A stretch of 64,000 nucleotides of DNA, taken from contig JAUIKM010000003.1 in NCBI GenBank assembly GCA_030430495.1, positions 124,001 to 188,000 of the forward strand. Reading direction: 5' to 3'. This document shows positions 35,270 to 51,382 of the stretch, one piece after another (positions within the stretch are counted from its first letter, which is position 1; the number at the start of each line of letters is the position of its first letter). The DNA comes from a bacterium. Lineage in GTDB: Bacteria > Bacteroidota > Ignavibacteria > Kapaibacteriales > UBA7675. The notes under the pieces were generated by a model that searched no databases, was not told the origin of the DNA, and saw nothing but the letters and a program-made list of their open reading frames with translations. The position numbers and the translations under genes were made by a program.

Positions 35270-37543
35270 TCATCTGTTAACAAGTACAACGCGGCGTTCG
35301 CTGCGGCCGGAGCCGTCGACATGCAGGATGTACATTCCGGCAGCCAGATTCGATGTGTTTAACTCAAGATCGGATCCGTAGCCGCGCGCAATGCGTCGCT
35401 CCAGCTGCAACACACCGGTGATGTCGTACAGACGCAGGGTGCGTTCGCCGTCGGGCGCGGCGTCCAGCGCGATGTGCAGGCGTCCGTCCGCGGGCTGCGG
35501 ATAACATTTGAGGCCGGAATTATCAGGTGCGTACGCGCTGTTATCTTCGACCGACACAACCTCTCCATCGCAGTCAAGTGCGACCGTCGGCAGCTCGAGC
35601 GTGAAAATTTCGTAGTCGCGCGGCACCGCCGTGTATTCGATGTTACAGACATCTCGATTGATGGCAATGCGATAACTGCCCAGCCCGAGGCGATCCAGAG
35701 CAAATTCGCCCTGCTCGTCGACAACGGCGTAGTCGATCATTTTGTCCGCTTCGTCAAATGCATAAGCGAGTGCGCCGTGCGCATATTCGGTCACGGTGGT
35801 ATCGGCCGGAAAGTACAGTACCCGGCCGCGCGTATTCAGTATGCCCTGATAGGGCGCAAGCGCTCTGCTGATAAAGCTGAACTGTCCTTCGTAGCTGTCG
35901 TCGATGCTGAAAACTTTCGCGTCCCTGATATCGATTACCGGGCCGGACGCGCTGTAATAGTACACGGGATAAGCGGCGCTCCACGGCACAAACTGCACCA
36001 CGTAGTCGCCCGCTTCCAGGTTGTAGGCCGTGAGCGTACGCCCGGCCGAGGCGGATTCCGGCCGCCAGGTTTGCACTTCCCAGGGCGTCTCATCGCGGTT
36101 GACGCGCTGAAAAACGGCGGTGCCGCCAAGACTGAGGCTCTGCACCGGATCGTTGACGTCGAAGGAAATGCTGTTGCCGGCTTGCGACAGTTCGCGCAGG
36201 CGAAAGTGTATCTCACCTTCAATCTGTGCGGGATGCAGCAGCGGCGCTTCGAGCGGCGAGTCGGCGCCGCCGTTGAAACGGTTGGCGTGCGCGGGCAATT
36301 CCGTCTGCGGGTCCACGTGCAGCGACACCGCTTCGGCCACGTAGACGACATCGTCAAAGAGGCCGGCGGAAAAACTTCCATCGTTTTCCGTGAAGGCGGC
36401 ATATACGTCCGAAGCACCGTAGAGATCGGGTACGGGGTGGCCGGGCGCGGGCTGGAAGACCACCAGCGAACGAATGCCCTTGCTGCCGGATTCGCTGACG
36501 ACACGCCCCCGGACAACGGTGCGTTTGCCGCTGCCGCGCCGTGCGGCGGCTTTGATCCTGACAACGCCGCCGCCGGACTGCTGTCCGCAGCGCAGACTGA
36601 CGGGAACCGCCTCGCGCGGGTCTTCGACGTCGCCATTCCAGGTTGTGTTGATCGAGTTGCCTTCGGCCTTGAAGATGTAGTCGCCGGCGGCGAGGTCGAG
36701 TGTGGCGTAGCCCTGCTCGACGCGCGCGCAGACGACGTCGCCGGCGCGCACGGCGTAGTCTTCGGCGGCCGTGACGAGTCGCTCGGTGCGAAGGGCGGTC
36801 ACCTTGCCTTCGTAGAGCGCGTAACCGTCCTCGTTGACTACTTCCGCGGTGACGCGGATACAGGCTTCGAGCGGATTGTCTTCCGCCGCGATGACCTGGA
36901 TCTGCCAGGACTGAAATGCTTCTATCTGCGGGTCGTTTGCGACACTTGCACGCAGCGTGGCCCGGACGATGCCGGGCGCAGTGGGCTGCCAGGCGACGAC
37001 GCCCGTTTCGGCATCGATCCTCATGCCATATGGTTTTTCGACCAGTGCATAGTGCAGCGGCTTGTTGTATTCTTCGCGCGCCGTCACGACAAACTCAAAG
37101 GGCTGCCCGGCGACGGCTTTGCGCGGAGCGGGACTGATGAAGACAATCTGTTGACCACCGGCGGGATAATCCATGTCGTCGCGCGAGACGTCGATGGAAG
37201 CCATGCGCGCCGCACCGACGAACTCGCCGTACTGCGGAACGACGACGACGGTGTACCGTCCGGCCATGGCAATCGGGAAGCGATGGCGCGTGCCGCGACA
37301 GACCGAATAAAATCTGACGTGTCCTTCCCCCCCGTAGCCGGTAAAAACGCTGTAGTGATCGACGGGCGTTGCGGGAGCATCCCAGCGCACATCGACGACT
37401 GCGGAACCTTCGTTCCTGAAATGCAGTTCCAGATTGGCAACGGGTTCCGGCTCCTGCGCCGACAGCCCGGCGGACGCAAACGCGAGCAGGAAGAGCGGTA
37501 AAATTATGCAGCTGATAATGTATCCAAATCGCGCTTGCGTCAT
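35270..37543 (-). CDS. Large T9SS-exported beta-rich protein
   Basis: About 757 residues from the ATG at 37543, with GAGG at good spacing; an in-frame TTG precedes it. A signal peptide ends near LSAQE. The protein is almost all beta: an Fn3-like start (ANLELHFRNEGSAVVDVRWD), a cadherin/Ig-like putative segment (PYGMRIDAETGVVAWQPTAPG), and several carboxypeptidase-regulatory-like modules (VVRGRVVSESGSKGIRSLVV). The end is a T9SS sorting domain (CYPQPADGRLHIALDA...LRLYDITGV...NLAAGMYILHVDG). No catalytic motif recognised; surface adhesion or structure is a guess. It faces the sigma-factor operon across about 200 bp. Confidence 0.85.
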   Translation of the reverse strand: MTQARFGYIISCIILPLFLLAFASAGLSAQEPEPVANLELHFRNEGSAVVDVRWDAPATPVDHYSVFTGYGGEGHVRFYSVCRGTRHRFPIAMAGRYTVVVVPQYGEFVGAARMASIDVSRDDMDYPAGGQQIVFISPAPRKAVAGQPFEFVVTAREEYNKPLHYALVEKPYGMRIDAETGVVAWQPTAPGIVRATLRASVANDPQIEAFQSWQIQVIAAEDNPLEACIRVTAEVVNEDGYALYEGKVTALRTERLVTAAEDYAVRAGDVVCARVEQGYATLDLAAGDYIFKAEGNSINTTWNGDVEDPREAVPVSLRCGQQSGGGVVRIKAAARRGSGKRTVVRGRVVSESGSKGIRSLVVFQPAPGHPVPDLYGASDVYAAFTENDGSFSAGLFDDVVYVAEAVSLHVDPQTELPAHANRFNGGADSPLEAPLLHPAQIEGEIHFRLRELSQAGNSISFDVNDPVQSLSLGGTAVFQRVNRDETPWEVQTWRPESASAGRTLTAYNLEAGDYVVQFVPWSAAYPVYYYSASGPVIDIRDAKVFSIDDSYEGQFSFISRALAPYQGILNTRGRVLYFPADTTVTEYAHGALAYAFDEADKMIDYAVVDEQGEFALDRLGLGSYRIAINRDVCNIEYTAVPRDYEIFTLELPTVALDCDGEVVSVEDNSAYAPDNSGLKCYPQPADGRLHIALDAAPDGERTLRLYDITGVLQLERRIARGYGSDLELNTSNLAAGMYILHVDGSGRSERRVVLVNR

Positions 37544-37750
37544 TCTATATACCTCAGGACTCAATGGCCGAAACGCGGCGGGAATTACCCGGGCGTTGCA
37601 GCGAGCACTAACACTGCCTGACTGCGGGCGTTACAGAGCCTGAAAACTACTGTCCATAAAAATAATTGTGCACCAAATTGTCTCTTTCGTGTTACTGCCT
37701 ACATCGGACAAGCGGCAAGCGGAGAGTTAAACAGTGCGGGTGGAAATATC

Positions 37751-38311
37751 ATGAACAGCAACATTGAGCAATATTCGGATGAAAGGCTCTTTGCAATGTT
37801 GAGAGGGCCGAAAGCGAAGTCGGAAGCAGCGTTTGGTGAACTCTACAACAGATATTCACCGCGCATCAAAGCATACTGCCTGCGAGTAGTGGGCAATATG
37901 GAACAAGCCGAGGATCTGTTTCAGGAGACCTTCCTGCGCTTTTACAAGAGCGCTCAGGTCGACCGTAAAATGACAAACGTCCCCGGCTTTTTGCTGCGCA
38001 TCGCCCGCAACCTGTGCCTCAATTACAAGCGCGACAAACGCGACACGGTCACACTCGAAAATTTCCACTTCTCCACCAAGCCGCATTCTCATGAGCGCGC
38101 CGAACTGCTCGACCTCATTGCAACCGCTCTCGAGTTGCTTGAGTTCGACTACCGCGAGGCATTTGTCCTGCGCGAGTACGACGGACTGTCGTACAAGGAA
38201 ATCTCCGCAATTGTCGGTGATTCCGTCTCCGCGGTAAAGACGCGCGTGTTCCGGGCAAAACAAAAAATTCGGAACATTCTCTCTCCGTACCTCGAGGATC
38301 TGGCGCATTGA
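37751..38311 (+). CDS. ECF-type sigma-70 family RNA polymerase sigma factor
   Basis: A 186-residue extracytoplasmic-function sigma factor. Region 2 runs from about residue 27 (FGELYNRYSPRIKAYCLRVV, then MEQAEDLFQETFLRFYK). A linker with ARNLCLNYKRDKRD follows. Region 4 is at about 122-180 (FDYREAFVLREYDGLSYKEI with the HTH VGDSVSAVKTRVFRAKQKIR). It is followed after 38 bp by a membrane protein with an anti-sigma-like N-terminus and two lipoproteins on the same strand, the usual layout of a sigma factor controlled from the envelope. It is likely to drive its own operon, but no promoter was identified. Confidence 0.95.
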   Translation: MNSNIEQYSDERLFAMLRGPKAKSEAAFGELYNRYSPRIKAYCLRVVGNMEQAEDLFQETFLRFYKSAQVDRKMTNVPGFLLRIARNLCLNYKRDKRDTVTLENFHFSTKPHSHERAELLDLIATALELLEFDYREAFVLREYDGLSYKEISAIVGDSVSAVKTRVFRAKQKIRNILSPYLEDLAH

Positions 38312-38349
38312 GCCGGAACGCCAACTTCCTCTAACACACATTCTCTGCT

Positions 38350-39630
38350 ATGGATTATTCGGAACTTCTTCACGACTTTCTGGACGGTGAGCTCAATCCC
38401 ATTCACGAAGACGCCCTCTTTGGTGCGCTTCAGCGAAATGAGCACCTCCGTTTGGAAATGAAAGATTTGCTGGAAATGCGCCGCGCCGTGGAAGCGGACA
38501 AAGCGGCCTTCCTGCCTTCGGCAAGCAGCACCAACGCGATCTTTTCGCAGTTGGGATTCGCCGCGCCGACGGCGGCCGGCGGAGCGGCTGCGCTCGCCGG
38601 AGAATCGACCGCCGTCGCTGCCGCCTCGGGATTTGGTCTGGCGCAGATGGCCGGAGTATTTGCCGGCGCCGCCCTGCTGACCAGTCTCGTCTTTGTCGGC
38701 CTCATCATGCCGGCGCTTGACGACCAGACCGGCGGCAGCCTGGCTCAGGCCGATGCGCCCGCTCGCATCCTCGAAGCCGACCCGATCGAATTTACCCTCG
38801 TCAGCCCGCCGGAAACCATCGTCCTCAACAACGGCATTGCCGCGGCAACCGCAGCGCCCACCGTTGACACGCAACGCAAGGACGGACTGCCGGCCGCTGC
38901 GGACAGGCGCGGATTCAGCGCCACGACACCGGTTGAACACTCCTCTCACGTTGACAAACAAGAAAATCATGCCTGGTCAGAAATCGCTGTTGAAGAGGCA
39001 ATCGCTTCATCGCAGCTTCTGGCCGGAGAGTCCAGGTTGTCCAGGCCGACGGACGCGGAGCAATCGACGCAGTTCCACACGATCGAATCCGTTCCCGTGG
39101 CCATGAACCTTTCGGACGAATTCACGCCGGAAGGTATGCCCAGCGTCACCTTTGAGTTGCGCGGCAACGGCGACGCCAAATTTTTCCAGAAAACCGACGT
39201 GGAATCCGTTGGCGATCCCTGGTTCAACGAAATGTCCGCTTCGATGCTGCTGCCGGTCAACGAGCACTTTGAATTCGGCGTCACTTTTGGTCAGGAAGTA
39301 TTTTCGCAGGTGTTTTACCGCGACGAGGCCAATGGCGAACGCATCGAATATCAGCAGCGGCCGCGCCTCTTCTGGGGCGGCGTGACGGGACGAGCATATC
39401 CGCTCACGGAAAATACCGCTATGCTGGCGCCCTACACGCAGTTGACATTCGGCTTTAACTTTTTCGGGACGGTGATCAAACCGTCGACGGGACTGCGGTT
39501 TACGCCGGACAACAGCCGCCTGAGCATGTACCTGGGCGCGGAGTATTCCCACCTGCTGTATTGGGAGGATCAGAATATGTTCAGTTCGGGCAAATTGAAT
39601 CTCAATTACGGCGTCTCCTACCGACTGTAA
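38350..39630 (+). CDS. Anti-sigma factor fused to an outer-membrane-barrel-like domain
   Basis: A 426-residue protein directly after the sigma factor. Residues 1-50 (YSELLHDFLDGELNPIHEDA, then LQRNEHLRLEMKDLLEM) look like the cytoplasmic helical anti-sigma domain, without the HxxxCxxC zinc motif. One membrane helix spans about 97-120. An Ala/Pro/Thr-rich linker reaches about residue 240. The C-terminal 180 residues are amphipathic strands of barrel type (MSASMLLPVNEHFEFGVTFG, RPRLFWGGVTGRAYPL, YTQLTFGFNFFGTVIKP, SMYLGAEYSHLLYW) ending in GKLNLNYGVSYRL with a barrel-like last strand. It may link an outer-membrane sensor directly to an inner-membrane anti-sigma domain; this is inference. Confidence 0.75.
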   Translation: MDYSELLHDFLDGELNPIHEDALFGALQRNEHLRLEMKDLLEMRRAVEADKAAFLPSASSTNAIFSQLGFAAPTAAGGAAALAGESTAVAAASGFGLAQMAGVFAGAALLTSLVFVGLIMPALDDQTGGSLAQADAPARILEADPIEFTLVSPPETIVLNNGIAAATAAPTVDTQRKDGLPAAADRRGFSATTPVEHSSHVDKQENHAWSEIAVEEAIASSQLLAGESRLSRPTDAEQSTQFHTIESVPVAMNLSDEFTPEGMPSVTFELRGNGDAKFFQKTDVESVGDPWFNEMSASMLLPVNEHFEFGVTFGQEVFSQVFYRDEANGERIEYQQRPRLFWGGVTGRAYPLTENTAMLAPYTQLTFGFNFFGTVIKPSTGLRFTPDNSRLSMYLGAEYSHLLYWEDQNMFSSGKLNLNYGVSYRL

Positions 39631-39649
39631 GCAGGAGAAGCAGGAAAGC

Positions 39650-40294
39650 ATGACGCAGAGAACGAACAGAATGGCATGGACGGGAACATGGATGCGCTCA
39701 ACGGCAATCGCGCTGCTGATGGCGGCCGCAACGTTTATGAGCGCATGTGAGTCGGCAACACAAATTGACACGCCGTTCAAGACAAATCCCGCCAGGATCA
39801 CGCCAATCGAGACGGAGATAAATGTTGAGATTACGGAGCTGGTGTACTACAACAAAACCGACGCCTGGCTCTGGAACCACAACGCTTCACACAAGGCATT
39901 TACGATCGATACTTCCGACGGCGCACCGATCTGTTCGGCCGATGTCGAACTGATCGAACTGCCCTCATCAACCGACAATAATGAACTGATTGCGCTGCGC
40001 AACATGCGCCTGCACCTGGACGATATGAAAGCGGGCGTGGTGAAAACCTGCCGCTCTTCCACGCAGTCAAACGGCCAGGAATCCTACGTCGACCTGAAAT
40101 ACCTGCTGGAAATGAATGGACAGCAACAGCTGCGCAACCACCAGGCCGAGTTCACGCTGGAAATGACGGAACGCGAATTGCCGGCGGGCCTGGAAGGTCA
40201 ACGCCAGGTTGAAATCACCTTTGAAACGACGATCGACGGTCCGGCCGAAGCACTCAAATACGAGGTTAAAGGCTCCATCACGCTACATTTCTGA
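39650..40294 (+). CDS. Lipoprotein of the sigma-factor operon, first copy
   Basis: A 214-residue lipoprotein with AGGAAAG before the ATG at 39650. The signal sequence is long; the hydrophobic part begins at about residue 15 and ends in lipobox FMSAC. The mature protein begins CESATQIDTPFK and continues as a beta-rich domain (INVEITELVYYNKTDAW, EFTLEMTERELPAG, RQVEITFETTIDG, YEVKGSITLHF). Its start resembles that of the next gene (C-x-S-x3-I-D/E-TP), suggesting they are paralogues. No named family recognised. Confidence 0.8.
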   Translation: MTQRTNRMAWTGTWMRSTAIALLMAAATFMSACESATQIDTPFKTNPARITPIETEINVEITELVYYNKTDAWLWNHNASHKAFTIDTSDGAPICSADVELIELPSSTDNNELIALRNMRLHLDDMKAGVVKTCRSSTQSNGQESYVDLKYLLEMNGQQQLRNHQAEFTLEMTERELPAGLEGQRQVEITFETTIDGPAEALKYEVKGSITLHF

Positions 40295-40297
40295 CCC

Positions 40298-40924
40298 ATG
40301 AAAACGCTCCTTTTTTTCATACCGATTCTCTGCCTGGCGTCCTGCAGCAACTCGCTGGACATCGAAACGCCGCGCAAGGAACAGGTGACGGAAGTGGACA
40401 CGACGCAACATCACCAGGAGAGTGCGGAGCTGATCCCGACGCGCTATGAACTTCAGGTGGAAGAAATCATGCGCGTGAGCTACAGCAACGGCGGCGGCGA
40501 GACCTATTCAACTTCGGTCTGGAAACACAAGGAACTGCGTTCGGACCTGCTGATGTTGCGGCAGGACAACGACGATCTGCACCTGTCGGCCAATCTTCTG
40601 CTGCGCGCCACGGATGCGTTTACACGCTACGGCATCACGGAAATAGAACTGCGCCTGGGCGGCATCAACAGCGTGGGACGCAGAACGATCAATGCACAGC
40701 CACAGGGCTCGAGTTTTGTGCGCGTCGTGTTCAGACCAATTGAAAATTATCCGGGTTCGACCACTGTGACCCAATACGTTCCCGCAGACGTGGAGTTTGT
40801 GCGGCCGGCCGGCGACAATTCCCACATTCAGATGAAGCTGAATTTCGACCTCGGCATTCCCCTGCCATCCAGCATCAGTCCGGGTAGCGCCAACATCCGG
40901 CTCGACCTCTTTTTTGACCAATAA
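40298..40924 (+). CDS. Lipoprotein of the sigma-factor operon, second copy
   Basis: A 208-residue lipoprotein that starts 3 bp after the previous stop, so coupling is likely. The signal peptide ends in lipobox CLASC and the mature start is SNSLDIETPRKE, like the IDTP motif of its neighbour. A strand-rich body follows (RYELQVEEIMRVSYSN, LRSDLLMLRQDNDDLHLSAN, GITEIELRLGG, SHIQMKLNFDLGIPLP, ANIRLDLFF). The paired lipoproteins may be sensed by, or be targets of, the sigma/anti-sigma pair upstream. Function unknown. Confidence 0.8.
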   Translation: MKTLLFFIPILCLASCSNSLDIETPRKEQVTEVDTTQHHQESAELIPTRYELQVEEIMRVSYSNGGGETYSTSVWKHKELRSDLLMLRQDNDDLHLSANLLLRATDAFTRYGITEIELRLGGINSVGRRTINAQPQGSSFVRVVFRPIENYPGSTTVTQYVPADVEFVRPAGDNSHIQMKLNFDLGIPLPSSISPGSANIRLDLFFDQ

Positions 40925-43128: not shown

Positions 43129-43255
43129 CCCACTCCCTCTTCAACTCCGAGACTTGCCGACGGCTTCTCAGTCAAAAACGCAACCAGAGACTAAACGATT
43201 CGCGCCTCCAAAAATTCTGCCTGTTTTGTCGCGCGATGAATTGGATCTGCTGTTT

Positions 43256-43711
43256 CGCGGATCGACGACGTTGGGTTGGCTGACTGGTATGCGGTGTTTG
43301 ATGACGCCTCGCGGATCGACGACGTTGGGTTGGCTGCCCGGTACGCGGTGTTTGATGACGCCTCGCGGATCGACGACGTTGGGTTGGCTGACTGGTACGC
43401 GGTGTTTGATGACGCCTCGCGGATCGACGATGTTGGGTTGGCTGCCCGGTACGCGGTGTTTGATGACGCCTCGCGGATCGACGATGTTGGGTTGGCTGCC
43501 CGGCACGCGGTGTTTGATGACGCCTCGCGGATCGACGACGTTGGGTTGGCTGACTGGTATGCGGTGTTTGATGACGCCTCGCGGATCGACGATGTTGGGT
43601 TGGCTGACTGGTATGCGGTGTTTGATGACGCCTCGCGGATCGACGATGTTGGGCTGGCTGCCCGGTACGCGGTGTTTGATGACGCCTCGCGGATCGACGA
43701 CGTTGGGTTGG
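43256..43711. repeat. 54-bp tandem repeat array, 8.4 copies
   Basis: Eight full units start at 43256 and every 54 bp to 43634, followed by a 24-bp partial unit. Each begins CGCGGATCGACGAYGTTGGG and ends GCGGTGTTTGATGACGCCT. Units differ only at a few bases (GAC/GAT, TGACTGG/TGCCCGG, TAT/TAC/CAC, TTG/CTG). Because 54 is divisible by three, long frames stay open on both strands, giving 18-residue repeats; none has a credible start, signal or family. In one plus frame (I-D-D-V-G-L-A) most differences are synonymous. There are no spacers, so this is not a CRISPR array. Confidence 0.97.
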
Positions 43712-47328: not shown

Positions 47329-48687
47329 TTAGCCGGCGGGATCCTTCAACAGGTCGCTGCGGTTAATATCCAGCGCGTCAAAACTGGCGGCCGGAATCAC
47401 GTAGTACCACTGCGCAAAACGGCGGTTCAGCTCGCGCGTGCGCTCGCGGCCCTGCTCGATCTTGCGCTGCCAGTCCTCATAGGCAATCTGCATTTGTTGG
47501 TTCTGGCGATCGGCTTCCGTGCGCAGACTGTCCGGTTTGTTCTGATAATCCAGGTTGGCGGGCTGCGCGGGCTCGGGGAAGTAGGACGGGTCAAACTCCG
47601 CCGTGACAAAGAGATAGCGGTTTTCAGCCGGTCCCGCGGCGTCGGCCTGCTCGCCGCCGGCCGTGAGTTCCAGTCCGCTGCCGTACGCCACCTCGCCAAA
47701 ACGCAATGTGTAGCTGACGCCTTCCTCGGTCTTGAGCTGCATCTCCCCCTCGTTGGAAACGAGCTGGCCGGAGCCGGAGATGTAAAAACCCTTGTCCTGC
47801 AGACTGCGCTGAGCGCTTGCGTCGAGCTGGATGGCGGACTCGCCGAAGTTTTCCAGCCCGGCGGTCAGACCTTCGGGTTTCTTGCGCACGCCGACGATTT
47901 TCAGCTCGTCGAGCGTCTTCAGCATGTTGTCGATTTTACTCGTGTTTAACTCTCGTCCGGCGGGCATGCCCTCCATTTTCCAGTTGTTGCCGTCTTTGGC
48001 AATTCGGAATGCCTGCCCCGGTTCGATGGTGCCGGTGAGTTCGTTAATCGAGTAGTCGTCGACGGTAATGCGGTTGACTTTGGCTTTGTCCAGCAGCAGC
48101 AGATCGGTCTCGATCCAGTCGGCAAAGTTCGTGGACAGTTCCAGATTCATTTTAACCGCGTAGACGCGTTTCTGTTCGGGCAGGCGCACAAAGAACATGT
48201 CTTCGCGGTCTTCGACGTTGTTGCCGACAATCAGGTCGGCGAGCACCTTGTCGCCTTCGCCGCGAATTGTGATGCGCTGGCCGCGTCCCTCGCTGGGAGC
48301 GGTTTCGTCGAGCGGATCGTAAACGCCGAGTTTGTCGTAGTCAATCGGATTGTCGGTTCGGAAGTCGTCGCGCGTCAGGCCGATAAGTCCCGCGGCGGTC
48401 TGCGCCAGGCGGTCCTTGCCGTCGGCCGGATAGTTATTGTGCGAAGGGATCGTCCAGATACCGTTGTTGTTGGCCACTTTAAATGCAAAGGGCGAGCCTG
48501 TTTCCACGTCGTAGCGGATGGCTTCGAGCGAAGTCGCCGCGTTGGGATCTGTAAAATCCGGGAAGAAAATCTCACCGACGTCGCTGAACTCTTCGGGGGC
48601 GGCGGCTTTGGGCTGCGTGACGATTGCCAGCAACAGCAGGACAACAGCGCCGCCGGAGAACACCAGGGTTTTGTTTAATTCACTCAT
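47329..48687 (-). CDS. DUF4340-type membrane-anchored periplasmic protein
   Basis: A 452-residue protein with one N-terminal anchor (TLVFSGGAVVLLLLAIVTQ) and a large outside domain containing DUF4340-like repeats. These include IWTIPSHNNYPADGKDRLAQ, LGVYDP, ADLIVGNNVEDREDMFFVRL, FADWIETDLLLLD, FRIAKDGNNWKME and YTLRFGEVAYGSGLEL. Such proteins regularly accompany GldFG-type ABC exporters. It is the last gene of the minus-strand operon, 1 bp after the GldFG-like gene, and is followed by a strong terminator. The molecular function of the family is not known. Confidence 0.9.
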   Translation of the reverse strand: MSELNKTLVFSGGAVVLLLLAIVTQPKAAAPEEFSDVGEIFFPDFTDPNAATSLEAIRYDVETGSPFAFKVANNNGIWTIPSHNNYPADGKDRLAQTAAGLIGLTRDDFRTDNPIDYDKLGVYDPLDETAPSEGRGQRITIRGEGDKVLADLIVGNNVEDREDMFFVRLPEQKRVYAVKMNLELSTNFADWIETDLLLLDKAKVNRITVDDYSINELTGTIEPGQAFRIAKDGNNWKMEGMPAGRELNTSKIDNMLKTLDELKIVGVRKKPEGLTAGLENFGESAIQLDASAQRSLQDKGFYISGSGQLVSNEGEMQLKTEEGVSYTLRFGEVAYGSGLELTAGGEQADAAGPAENRYLFVTAEFDPSYFPEPAQPANLDYQNKPDSLRTEADRQNQQMQIAYEDWQRKIEQGRERTRELNRRFAQWYYVIPAASFDALDINRSDLLKDPAG

Positions 48688-48688
48688 A

Positions 48689-51382
48689 TCAGCCTCTCAA
48701 CCTCCGCGCCATTGCGGCTCCTTCGCGTTCGCGGCGCTGACGGCGGACAAAGATGACGACGCCGATGACGAGAACGGGAATGGGAGGAATCAAAATGGCG
48801 ATGTATTTAATGATATTAATAATGTCCAGGATCTGACTTTCCATGTCTTCCTTGGCTTCCGCAATCGTGGCTTCCTTCTCCTGATCGATGCGCTCTTTGG
48901 CGACCTCGAACTTGCGGTTTTCGACTTCCTGGATGTTGCGCGCCATAATCTGTTTGGCTTGTTCATCCAGGTCGCTACGCGTGCGCACTTCGTCGATTTT
49001 GCGATCCAGTTCGGCCTGCGCCTGGTTCAGTTTGGTCTGGGCGGCCGCCTCGGCTTCGCGTTCGCGTTCGATGCTGGCTTCAACGAAGTCGGACTTCTGG
49101 TTCTCGACCAATTCCAGGGTGCGGTGTTTAACCCGCTTTTTGCGCAGATCGATAAAGGAGTCGTCGCCCATCACCAGGTCGACGCAGTTCAGGAAGAAGG
49201 TCACGTTGTCGAAGTTAAGTCCTTCGATGCCCATGCGACGCAGGCGGAAGAGCTGTTCGGACACAAAGTCGATATCGCTGATAACCACCAGGTTCATGCC
49301 GGGATCGGCTGCGGAAGCGGCTTCGTCGTCGTCAGATTCTTCGTCGTCCGCGGCGGCTTTGCCGGAGGTGACGTGCGCCGCGACGGTAAATGCCGTGCCG
49401 GTCGGGTTGTTATGCGGCAGATTGGGATTGATTTGCGATCCGAAGAAGGTGCGCATCATCACCTGATTGTAGTTATGCGCGCCCGAGGTATACCCCGTTT
49501 CCAGCAGCGGCTGGAAGTTGAAGCTCGAACCCGGCGACGGGAAAATCGAACCGGGATAGAGCAGGACGAGTTCCTGCAGACCGGAGCTGGCGACACTTGC
49601 CGGGCTGACGGAGTTTTCGTTGCCGCTGCCGGGGCCGATGAAGACAAATTCGGCCGGCACATTCTGCAACTGCGGATGCGGGTTGTAGGTGTCCCAGATA
49701 ATCTGTCCGCTGTTCCAGCTGACGCCGAGCGAGTTCAGCATCGTCTGGATGTCGCCTTTGGGCGTCGGCGGCGGTCCCTGGCGCTGCTGAAAAGGATTTT
49801 GCTGGCCGCCGGGTTGTTCGAGCGGAGCAAGCGCGGGATTGACGAGCGGCAGCGGATCCACCAGCAGGACGGCCGGATTGCCCTGCTCGATATAGGCTTT
49901 CACATTGTCGATAGCCGGCTGCCCGAGCGATGAGGGCAGGACCGCCAGCAGGCCGTCCAGATCTTCGGTAATCGGGTTGGCCGGGTCGATTTCAACAAGG
50001 TCGTATTGTTTGCGCAGTTCTTCCACCATTTCCCATGGCGGGTTACTGCTCATGGCCTGGAAGTCAAAACCGCCGAACACTTTTGCTTCGGTTTTCACGA
50101 CGCCGAGTTTCTTGCGCTGGGTGCGCGCCACGACGCGGATGCTGCGCGCCAGTTCGTATTCGACCGGCAGGCCGCGATCAAAGAACGGCACAACTTCTTC
50201 TTCGGCGCCGCAGGTGTATGCCAGGCCGAGGAAGACCTGCATGGAACCGGCGCGCGCGTTGCTGGGGTCGCTGATTTCGCGCGGCAGGATGTTAAACTTC
50301 TCACGCGCCTCGCGGGCTTCCTCGGTGTAGGGCTCGGTGTCGTACACGACGACCTGAACCTTGCCGCCGGCTTCGGCGTCGATTTCGCGCAGGAAACTGA
50401 TGAGATTCTCACGTGTCTGCACAAACTCGGCGGGCACCTGCGGGCTGACAAAAGCCTGCACAAAGACGGGGCGATCCGAGTCGAGCTGATCGATGAGCGA
50501 ATAGGTTTGATCCGACAGCGAGTGCAGGCCTTCGGCCGTGACGTCCAGACGCATGCCCGCGCGACCGACAATGGTCGTAAGGCAGACAAGGGCGAGCGCG
50601 ATGGCCGCGGAACGGACGATGTAATGCAGCAGCATGCCCGATCCCTCTTTTTTGGCCTGCCAGTGACGGCGGCCGAGAATCGCGACATTCAGATACAAAA
50701 ACAGCGCCGCAACGAGCAGGAAGTACAACAGTCCGGAGAATGTGACCACGCCGCGCGCAAAGTCCTGGAAGTGACTGACCAGACCGACTTCGTAGAGCAG
50801 GCGCTCCGTGTCCGGTCCAAAGACGCCGAAGATTTCCGGCAGGAACATCAGAATGGCCGTAAAGACCGAACCCAGAATGAATGCCACCGTCGAGTTGGGC
50901 GTCAGCAGCGAGGCGAGCATGCCGACGGCGATGAGCGCACCGCCGAACAACCAGTAGCCCATGTAGTTGGCCAGCATCAATCCCAGGTCGGGCGCGCCGA
51001 GCCAGAAGAGCACCACCACGTGACTGAGCGACAGCACGATCGAGGCGGTGTAAATTCCGAGTGCGGCCAGATATTTGCCGAGCGTGACTTCAAAGTCGGT
51101 GGCGGGCAGAGTCAGCAGCAGCTCGTCGGTGCCGCCATTGATCTCGTCCGACCAGATCCCCATTGACAACGCGGGGACAAACAAAATGAGCAGGTAAGGG
51201 AACCAGGCGTTGAGCTGGTTGAGGTTCGCCAGGTTTTCGCGGAAGAAGTCCGCCTGCCAGAACGCGCCGATCGCGCTGATAAAAATGAAGAGCGTAATAA
51301 AGACGTAGCCCGTCGGGCTTGTAAAGTAGCGCGCGATATCGCGGCGGAAAATTGCGTTGACGATTGTCCAGTTCAGTTTCAT
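48689..51382 (-). CDS. ABC permease fused to GldG-type auxiliary protein
   Basis: An 897-residue fusion. Residues 1-240 are a GldF/NosY-type ABC-2 permease with six membrane helices (YFTSPTGYVFITLFIFISAI at the start). From about residue 255 a second anchor leads into the GldG/ABC_transp_aux domain (LRLDVTAEGLHSLSDQTYSL-like start, FVSPQVPAEFVQTRENLISF, FGGFDFQAMSS, LLAVLPSSLG). A long Glu/Arg/Gln coiled coil lies at about 740-840, and a last membrane helix ends in a basic tail. GldF and GldG are separate proteins in gliding Flavobacteria. The ATG overlaps the ATPase stop by 4 bp. No frameshift is visible, so the fusion is real in this assembly. Confidence 0.92.
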   Translation of the reverse strand: MKLNWTIVNAIFRRDIARYFTSPTGYVFITLFIFISAIGAFWQADFFRENLANLNQLNAWFPYLLILFVPALSMGIWSDEINGGTDELLLTLPATDFEVTLGKYLAALGIYTASIVLSLSHVVVLFWLGAPDLGLMLANYMGYWLFGGALIAVGMLASLLTPNSTVAFILGSVFTAILMFLPEIFGVFGPDTERLLYEVGLVSHFQDFARGVVTFSGLLYFLLVAALFLYLNVAILGRRHWQAKKEGSGMLLHYIVRSAAIALALVCLTTIVGRAGMRLDVTAEGLHSLSDQTYSLIDQLDSDRPVFVQAFVSPQVPAEFVQTRENLISFLREIDAEAGGKVQVVVYDTEPYTEEAREAREKFNILPREISDPSNARAGSMQVFLGLAYTCGAEEEVVPFFDRGLPVEYELARSIRVVARTQRKKLGVVKTEAKVFGGFDFQAMSSNPPWEMVEELRKQYDLVEIDPANPITEDLDGLLAVLPSSLGQPAIDNVKAYIEQGNPAVLLVDPLPLVNPALAPLEQPGGQQNPFQQRQGPPPTPKGDIQTMLNSLGVSWNSGQIIWDTYNPHPQLQNVPAEFVFIGPGSGNENSVSPASVASSGLQELVLLYPGSIFPSPGSSFNFQPLLETGYTSGAHNYNQVMMRTFFGSQINPNLPHNNPTGTAFTVAAHVTSGKAAADDEESDDDEAASAADPGMNLVVISDIDFVSEQLFRLRRMGIEGLNFDNVTFFLNCVDLVMGDDSFIDLRKKRVKHRTLELVENQKSDFVEASIEREREAEAAAQTKLNQAQAELDRKIDEVRTRSDLDEQAKQIMARNIQEVENRKFEVAKERIDQEKEATIAEAKEDMESQILDIINIIKYIAILIPPIPVLVIGVVIFVRRQRREREGAAMARRLRG

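Follow-up and report, generated by a model that had tools for sequence, protein, structure and literature searches.

A single protein chain reaching from the cytoplasm to the outer membrane, known as Dma, has reportedly been recognized since 2024 in gut Bacteroides. In the Dma family an anti-sigma domain, a transmembrane (TM) helix, a long disordered tether and a C-terminal beta-barrel follow one another; Dma1, Dma2 and Dma3 of Bacteroides thetaiotaomicron pair with extracytoplasmic function (ECF) sigma factors, ECF21 (Das), and the signal sensed by Dma is not known (PMC13088901). In the present study, a four-gene operon with a comparable layout is described at positions 37751–40924 of a window of 64,000 nucleotides (the whole stretch of DNA that was analysed) from a bacterium of the Kapaibacteriales. 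The operon comprises an ECF sigma factor gene, a gene for a predicted dual-membrane-spanning anti-sigma fusion and two lipoprotein genes. It is rather likely to be an autoregulated trans-envelope signalling operon, with a sensor that gauges the outer membrane or the operon's own lipoproteins.

Other known systems share parts of this layout. The class I anti-sigma factors of the RsiW/SigW and RseA/RpoE pairs likewise have a small helical sigma-holding domain and one TM helix, but they carry no barrel, and for RseA separate proteins sense the outer membrane. FecIRA also relays the state of the outer membrane to an ECF sigma factor; however, it does so with a separate TonB-dependent transducer and anti-sigma factor and a 22-stranded barrel, whereas no TonB-dependent transducer or receptor was found among the operon's four genes and the FecR family was absent from the Pfam scan. 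The preliminary description of this DNA had presented a single chain from the cytoplasm towards the outer membrane as a shortcut relative to such systems. The chain was predicted here as well, but it is not unprecedented, since Dma has the same layout (PMC13088901).

Predicted Architecture of the Fusion Protein

The fusion gene (38350..39630, + strand) encodes a protein of 426 aa, for which an AlphaFold2 (AF2) model was built from 66 aligned relatives, with a mean pLDDT of 73. The model opens with the anti-sigma domain (residues 1–72; 38350..38565, +), a zinc-ligand-free domain of four helices spanning residues 3–67, with pLDDT mostly >85 in the helices and >80 up to residue 70. The inner-membrane helix at residues 99–119 (38644..38706, +) was seen both as an AF2 helix and as a hydropathy window of 2.24 at 101, and the hydropathy of this helix exceeded 1.6 in 59/66 relatives. 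It is followed by a disordered periplasmic linker at residues 124–262 (38719..39135, +), where pLDDT was mostly <50 and the AF2 model shows disorder over residues 124–260; its 139 residues include 21 Ala, 13 Ser, 13 Glu, 12 Thr and 10 Pro. The chain ends in a predicted 8-stranded outer-membrane beta-barrel at residues 264–426 (39139..39627, +), obtained by AF2 and fold search, with the eight strands at residues 267–425 and pLDDT mostly >93. All the elements read earlier from the sequence were thus predicted by AF2, hydropathy and composition: a helical N-terminus resembling an anti-sigma domain, one TM helix, a disordered linker rich in Ala, and strands at the C-terminus. For the strand region the barrel-type end held, and the length of 180 residues was corrected to about 163 (264–426).

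The fold search with the barrel model gave Z values of 15.2 for OprF, 14.3 for NspA and 13.9 for OmpA. Outer-membrane barrels reached Z 13–16 on this model, compared with about 10–11 for avidins; the absence of a family from the fold-match list carries no information on that family. The C-terminus was predicted as a barrel of the outer-membrane type, and a periplasmic beta-sandwich, the other outcome considered beforehand, did not arise. In the family average, hydrophobic residues alternated in and out in most barrel strands. Moreover, the C-terminal residue was Phe in 45/66 relatives and F, L, Y or W in 58/66, the window protein itself ending in Leu. The strand alternation and the C-terminal Phe are marks of a real outer-membrane barrel. 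In an even-stranded barrel both the N- and the C-terminus are periplasmic, which fits a tether arriving from the inner membrane. From these models, the C-terminal part of the fusion is predicted to form an outer-membrane barrel. The predicted fold of residues 264–426 is that of the 8-stranded barrels OmpA, OprF and NspA. The fusion was different from these proteins in that the barrel is C-terminal on an inner-membrane protein, with neither a signal peptide nor a peptidoglycan-binding domain.

Sequence searches gave few matches. In the Pfam scan no family was above cut-off for the 426-aa fusion or for either lipoprotein, and a PDB sequence search with the fusion (P0002) alone returned no match. 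The NCBIfam antisigma model matched 12/66 relatives (best E 3.9e-9), and the plausible PDB profile matches of the anti-sigma domain were RsiW, DdvA and RseA, each of them weak (E 0.7–0.9). The zinc motif HxxxCxxC was present in 0/66 relatives; it is optional in class I anti-sigma domains (PMC7406223).

Predicted Sequestration of the Sigma Factor

The sigma factor (37751..38311, +; 186 aa) was confirmed as an ECF sigma factor, with sigma-70 regions 2 and 4 above the Pfam cut-offs (Sigma70_r2, E 4.6e-17; Sigma70_r4_2, E 4.1e-16). Sigma and anti-sigma were folded as one chain by using in-frame relatives in which the sigma stop codon was read as Gly. For the read-through chain of locus L066 (pTM 0.73), the sigma part matched SigW of the SigW:RsiW crystal with Z 16.2 and an rmsd of 2.7 Å over 156 residues. 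The corresponding value was 3.1 Å for CnrH of CnrH:CnrY, compared with about 27 Å for RNA-polymerase-bound sigma-E. In the model, the L066 sigma fold is the sequestered, RsiW-inhibited arrangement, as in RsiW/SigW. The contact proposed between the N-terminal domain and the sigma factor agreed with the prediction of an anti-sigma-bound SigW conformation, which refers to the sigma arrangement in a fused chain. Furthermore, among same-genome paralogues the divergence of the sigma followed that of the anti-sigma domain (r 0.51, p 0.0005; two genomes pooled, within-genome permutation), with p 0.0045 in genome G002 alone and p 0.16 in the own genome alone. Together, the models point to a small helical domain that binds both sigma-2 and sigma-4 as class I anti-sigma factors do, and the cytoplasmic domain of the fusion is predicted to hold the sigma inactive.

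Conservation of the Gene Order

The four open reading frames were found at the positions described before, and the gene of lipoprotein 2 (40298..40924, +) starts 3 bp past the stop of that of lipoprotein 1 (39650..40294, +). The own genome is a 5.6-Mb assembly, with Candidatus Kapaibacterium and other Kapabacteria-type metagenome-assembled genomes (MAGs) as its named relatives. The fusion family occurs in Bacteroidota, its relatives being from Candidatus Kapaibacterium and 'Bacteroidetes/Ignavibacteria' MAGs, and the phylum code agrees with that of a Bacteroides-type genome. About six full-length paralogues of the fusion were counted within the own genome. The family was matched in 40/41 genomes searched, with 26 match rows in one genome, and these copy numbers are approximate because partial matches were counted as separate rows.

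A sigma homologue lay directly upstream of the fusion in 37/37 loci located by the fusion search. When the sigma alone was searched, the fusion was immediately downstream in 76 of the best 80 sigma loci, and in three more after allowing for over-long start codons. The 80th locus ends just past the sigma, so the sigma–fusion order was present in 79/79 testable loci; a few of these 79 fusions match over the N-terminal half only, and three are cut by a contig or locus end. A lipoprotein followed the fusion in at least 66/88 loci; the automatic rule behind this count evidently overlooks some. The sigma–fusion–lipoprotein order sought in related genomes thus recurs, and the recurrence of the sigma–fusion order is far above chance. 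The tree places the sigma in a supported clade whose members are paired with this fusion family. The fusion sequence as the sole query found no relatives in the genome contigs, and the sigma alignment search succeeded instead; alignment A1 contained no conserved stretch usable for scanning.

Promoter and Probable Autoregulation

A putative ECF-type promoter, TGCACC-N14-GTGTTACT, is located at 37669..37696 (+), about 55 bp upstream of the sigma start codon. Prior-free motif discovery in the DNA preceding 88 sigma genes returned TGTAAC-N15/16-GTGTTATT, which has the sequence typical of ECF promoters, including a -35 box of the AAC type; in 52/88 regions the score exceeded the 99th percentile obtained with shuffled sequences. 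Three genomes (18 Mb in total) each contained a single occurrence of the strict pattern TGCAYC-N14/15-GTGTTAYT, and all three occurrences precede the sigma gene in this operon or in its closest relative; the reversed control gave one match in total. Since the strict pattern was found only at this operon, the operon most likely drives itself and is probably autoregulated. In addition, the sigma-gene paralogues carry variant promoter boxes, which would be consistent with insulated channels. A generic sigma-70 promoter scan gave one match, at chance level, and was discarded.

The promoter lies within an intergenic region shared with a divergent neighbour (35270-37543, -), which encodes a secreted protein of 757 aa that carries a type IX sorting domain.

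Operon Lipoproteins and Their Shared Tag

Lipoprotein 1 (214 aa; lipobox Cys codon at 39746-39748) carries the tag CESATQIDTPFK at 39746-39781, and lipoprotein 2 (208 aa; lipobox Cys codon at 40343-40345) carries the tag CSNSLDIETPRK at 40343-40378. Most operon lipoproteins continue from the lipidated Cys with C-x-[SD]-P-[LI]-[DG]-[ILV]-[DN]-T-P-R. The core pattern was found in 36/88 operon lipoproteins compared with 0/19 other lipoprotein candidates from 464 kb of own-genome sequence (Fisher p 1.6e-4). Flanking DNA was surveyed more loosely, and there all other strict carriers of the tag proved to be additional lipoproteins of operons of this kind. The shared N-terminal tag on the operon lipoproteins, which can be written C-x-S-P-L-D-[ILV]-D-T-P-R, is a new feature.

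The two window lipoproteins had been called paralogous. Pairwise BLASTP gave little ground for this (E 0.14, lipobox region only), whereas an iterated profile search with decoys joined them, with E 3e-20 for lipoprotein 1 and 9e-17 for lipoprotein 2 in the last round. No shuffled or reversed decoy was among the matches listed, and the apparent background matches were operon lipoproteins present in the background set. After removal of the tag, about 60/104 lipoproteins, including both of the window, formed one diverse superfamily. The remaining operon lipoproteins were unrelated and had VWA, DUF4397, Ig-like or META domains. The tag was clear on the beta-rich, VWA and DUF4397 lipoproteins, and the Ig and META ones had a weak tag at most. 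That unrelated domains carry the same tag suggests that it serves as a signal for docking or sorting; in an alternative reading, it may be a surface-export signal.

The divergence of the tag followed that of the barrel after the divergence of the sigma and the anti-sigma domain had been removed (partial r 0.29, p 0.0005). It was weakly correlated with the sigma (0.14, p 0.02) and not with the anti-sigma domain (p 0.24). Because the tag varies with the barrel, the barrel is indicated as its partner, and docking of the tag by the barrel is possible, if somewhat doubtful.

Proposed Mechanism

In the mechanism that we favour, the cytoplasmic domain of the fusion would keep the sigma inactive, while the predicted chain would cross the inner membrane once, pass through the periplasm as a disordered tether and end in the 8-stranded outer-membrane barrel. 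A change at the barrel, most likely failed insertion or altered binding to the tagged lipoprotein(s) of the operon, would expose the tether to proteolysis or pull on it, and the sigma would be freed; either proteolysis or loss of the tether might bring about the release. A homologue of the RseP-type site-2 protease is present, above cut-off. The free sigma would then transcribe its own operon, as the promoter evidence suggests, and supply more sigma, anti-sigma and lipoprotein. The lipoproteins would be the main known output, and they may also be sensed, not just produced. With many paralogues per genome, differing in promoters and lipoprotein domains, such operons may act as parallel channels.

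Several points weigh against this mechanism. The short read-through linker of the L066 chain may force the contact, the sigma having been folded only as part of a fused chain, and the Mantel tests may leave some shared ancestry in the covariation. The correlation of tag and barrel may keep residual phylogeny, or the barrel, which evolves faster, may just record divergence better; in a column-wise search for barrel residues that follow the tag, the strongest column was Q336, which stood alone without any cluster around it. It took profile iteration to reach lipoprotein 2. Furthermore, promoter sites with one mismatch were no commoner than in the reversed control, and a wider regulon was not shown.

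Comparison with Dma and Alternative Explanations

The comparison set for Bacteroidales Dma consisted of locus L168 and 30 Bacteroidales relatives. L168 was recovered via DUF4943 and is of the Dma2 type, with the order sigma, barrel protein, DUF4943 protein and next gene. Its DUF4943 protein (L168:3139-3666, -) has a lipobox and then an acidic stretch with NNPD (CNEEAVDYNNPDVD), which is loosely tag-like. The operon studied here was different from Dma in that its lipoproteins share a tag, and these lipoproteins matched none of the DUF4943, DUF4858 and NigD models in the Pfam scans.

The Kapaibacterium-type fusion might belong to the published Dma/ECF21 family as a strongly diverged branch, with one origin and a Dma-like function such as vesiculation control. 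The two have in common the four-part chain, the adjacent sigma gene, the further small gene(s) downstream and, in a broad sense, the phylum, and Dma2 is likewise followed by a lipobox protein (L168). However, profile similarity was lacking, as hhalign of the fusion family against Bacteroidales Dma gave 0.5% for the anti-sigma domains and 4.7% for the whole proteins. The barrels aligned only out of register, over 62 columns, and the Dma profile did not find the fusion family in 61 genomes of the order. The sigmas of the two groups formed separate supported clades, but a joint clade was not rejected by the approximately unbiased (AU) test (p 0.47), and a firm claim of independent origin was dropped because of this result. 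A common origin with Dma seems unlikely to us. Tentative, too, is the idea of a second, independently evolved cytoplasm-to-outer-membrane anti-sigma family whose barrel reads the lipoprotein tag, the tag being a plug-in module for unrelated sensor domains (beta-rich, VWA, DUF4397). The Kapaibacterium-type fusion would work in the manner of Dma, while its membership of the Dma family is not established.

A different view of the barrel is that of a built-in sentinel of outer-membrane assembly, which would bind no ligand, the lipoproteins being mere output. If assembly falters, the protein's own C-terminal outer-membrane-protein signature would stay in the periplasm and lead to cleavage of its own tether, in the way that the tails of unfolded porins make DegS cut RseA, although here in cis. 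This would agree with the C-terminal residues of the family (Phe in 45/66, F/L/Y/W in 58/66), with the weak similarity of the anti-sigma domain to RseA and RsiW, and with the RseP homologue. However, it leaves unexplained both the retention of many paralogues with distinct barrels and the variation of the tag with the barrel, and the window protein itself ends in Leu; such a sentinel is considered doubtful. Very improbable, on the other hand, is a barrel-like domain outside the outer membrane, for instance a soluble avidin- or lipocalin-like one, which would make the fusion a conventional anti-sigma factor of the inner membrane whose sensor lies in the periplasm. Avidins did align to the model (Z about 10–11), but outer-membrane barrels ranked well above them (Z 13–16), and the outward hydrophobic alternation in most strands and the C-terminal barrel-assembly signature speak for the outer membrane.

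Related Sigma-Linked Proteins

In the own genome, the partners of the nearest sigma group outside the clade have the same LDGEL-type anti-sigma domain and TM helix as the fusion family, but TPR-like ends. At loci L210-L215 and L234 (own genome, G012), the LDGEL-type domain and TM helix were joined to other C-termini, which were TPR-like in those tested. The sensor end of LDGEL-type anti-sigma proteins looks exchangeable, and the combination with TPR-like ends is as expected if an anti-sigma module that already existed had gained a barrel, either as an addition or in exchange.

A different ECF sigma clade was found upstream at L223 (G000:C46 near 47655-49684), L224 (G000:C63:192800-194726), and L241 and L243 (G012). 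The sigma-adjacent proteins there have a short N-terminus, one TM helix and, at the C-terminus, a sorting domain for type IX secretion, with Por_Secre_tail above the Pfam cut-off in 4/4, and a search for relatives of L224 returned unrelated type IX tails only. If true, proteins of this type would be candidate anti-sigmas with a tail sent to type IX secretion, and another link between cytoplasm and surface. In addition, a protein on contig C73 of the own genome (L220:81-1394, -), encoded after another ECF sigma, has an unrelated N-terminus, a TM helix, a long linker and a weakly OMP-like (outer-membrane-protein-like) C-terminal half. It is possibly a third type of barrel-ended anti-sigma protein in this genome. 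Elsewhere in the window, a tandem array of a 54-bp unit (43255-43711; 8.5 copies, 94% matches) lies beside an unrelated gene.

Significance

The joining of an anti-sigma domain to an outer-membrane barrel, as predicted here, would not be a peculiarity of Bacteroidales; a deep sister lineage appears to use it routinely and in many copies, and it was perhaps invented twice. What such barrels sense becomes a concrete and testable question, given the shared tag, a promoter that is probably autoregulatory and the large number of paralogues. If true, the tag module would let unrelated sensor domains report to sigma factors across the envelope.

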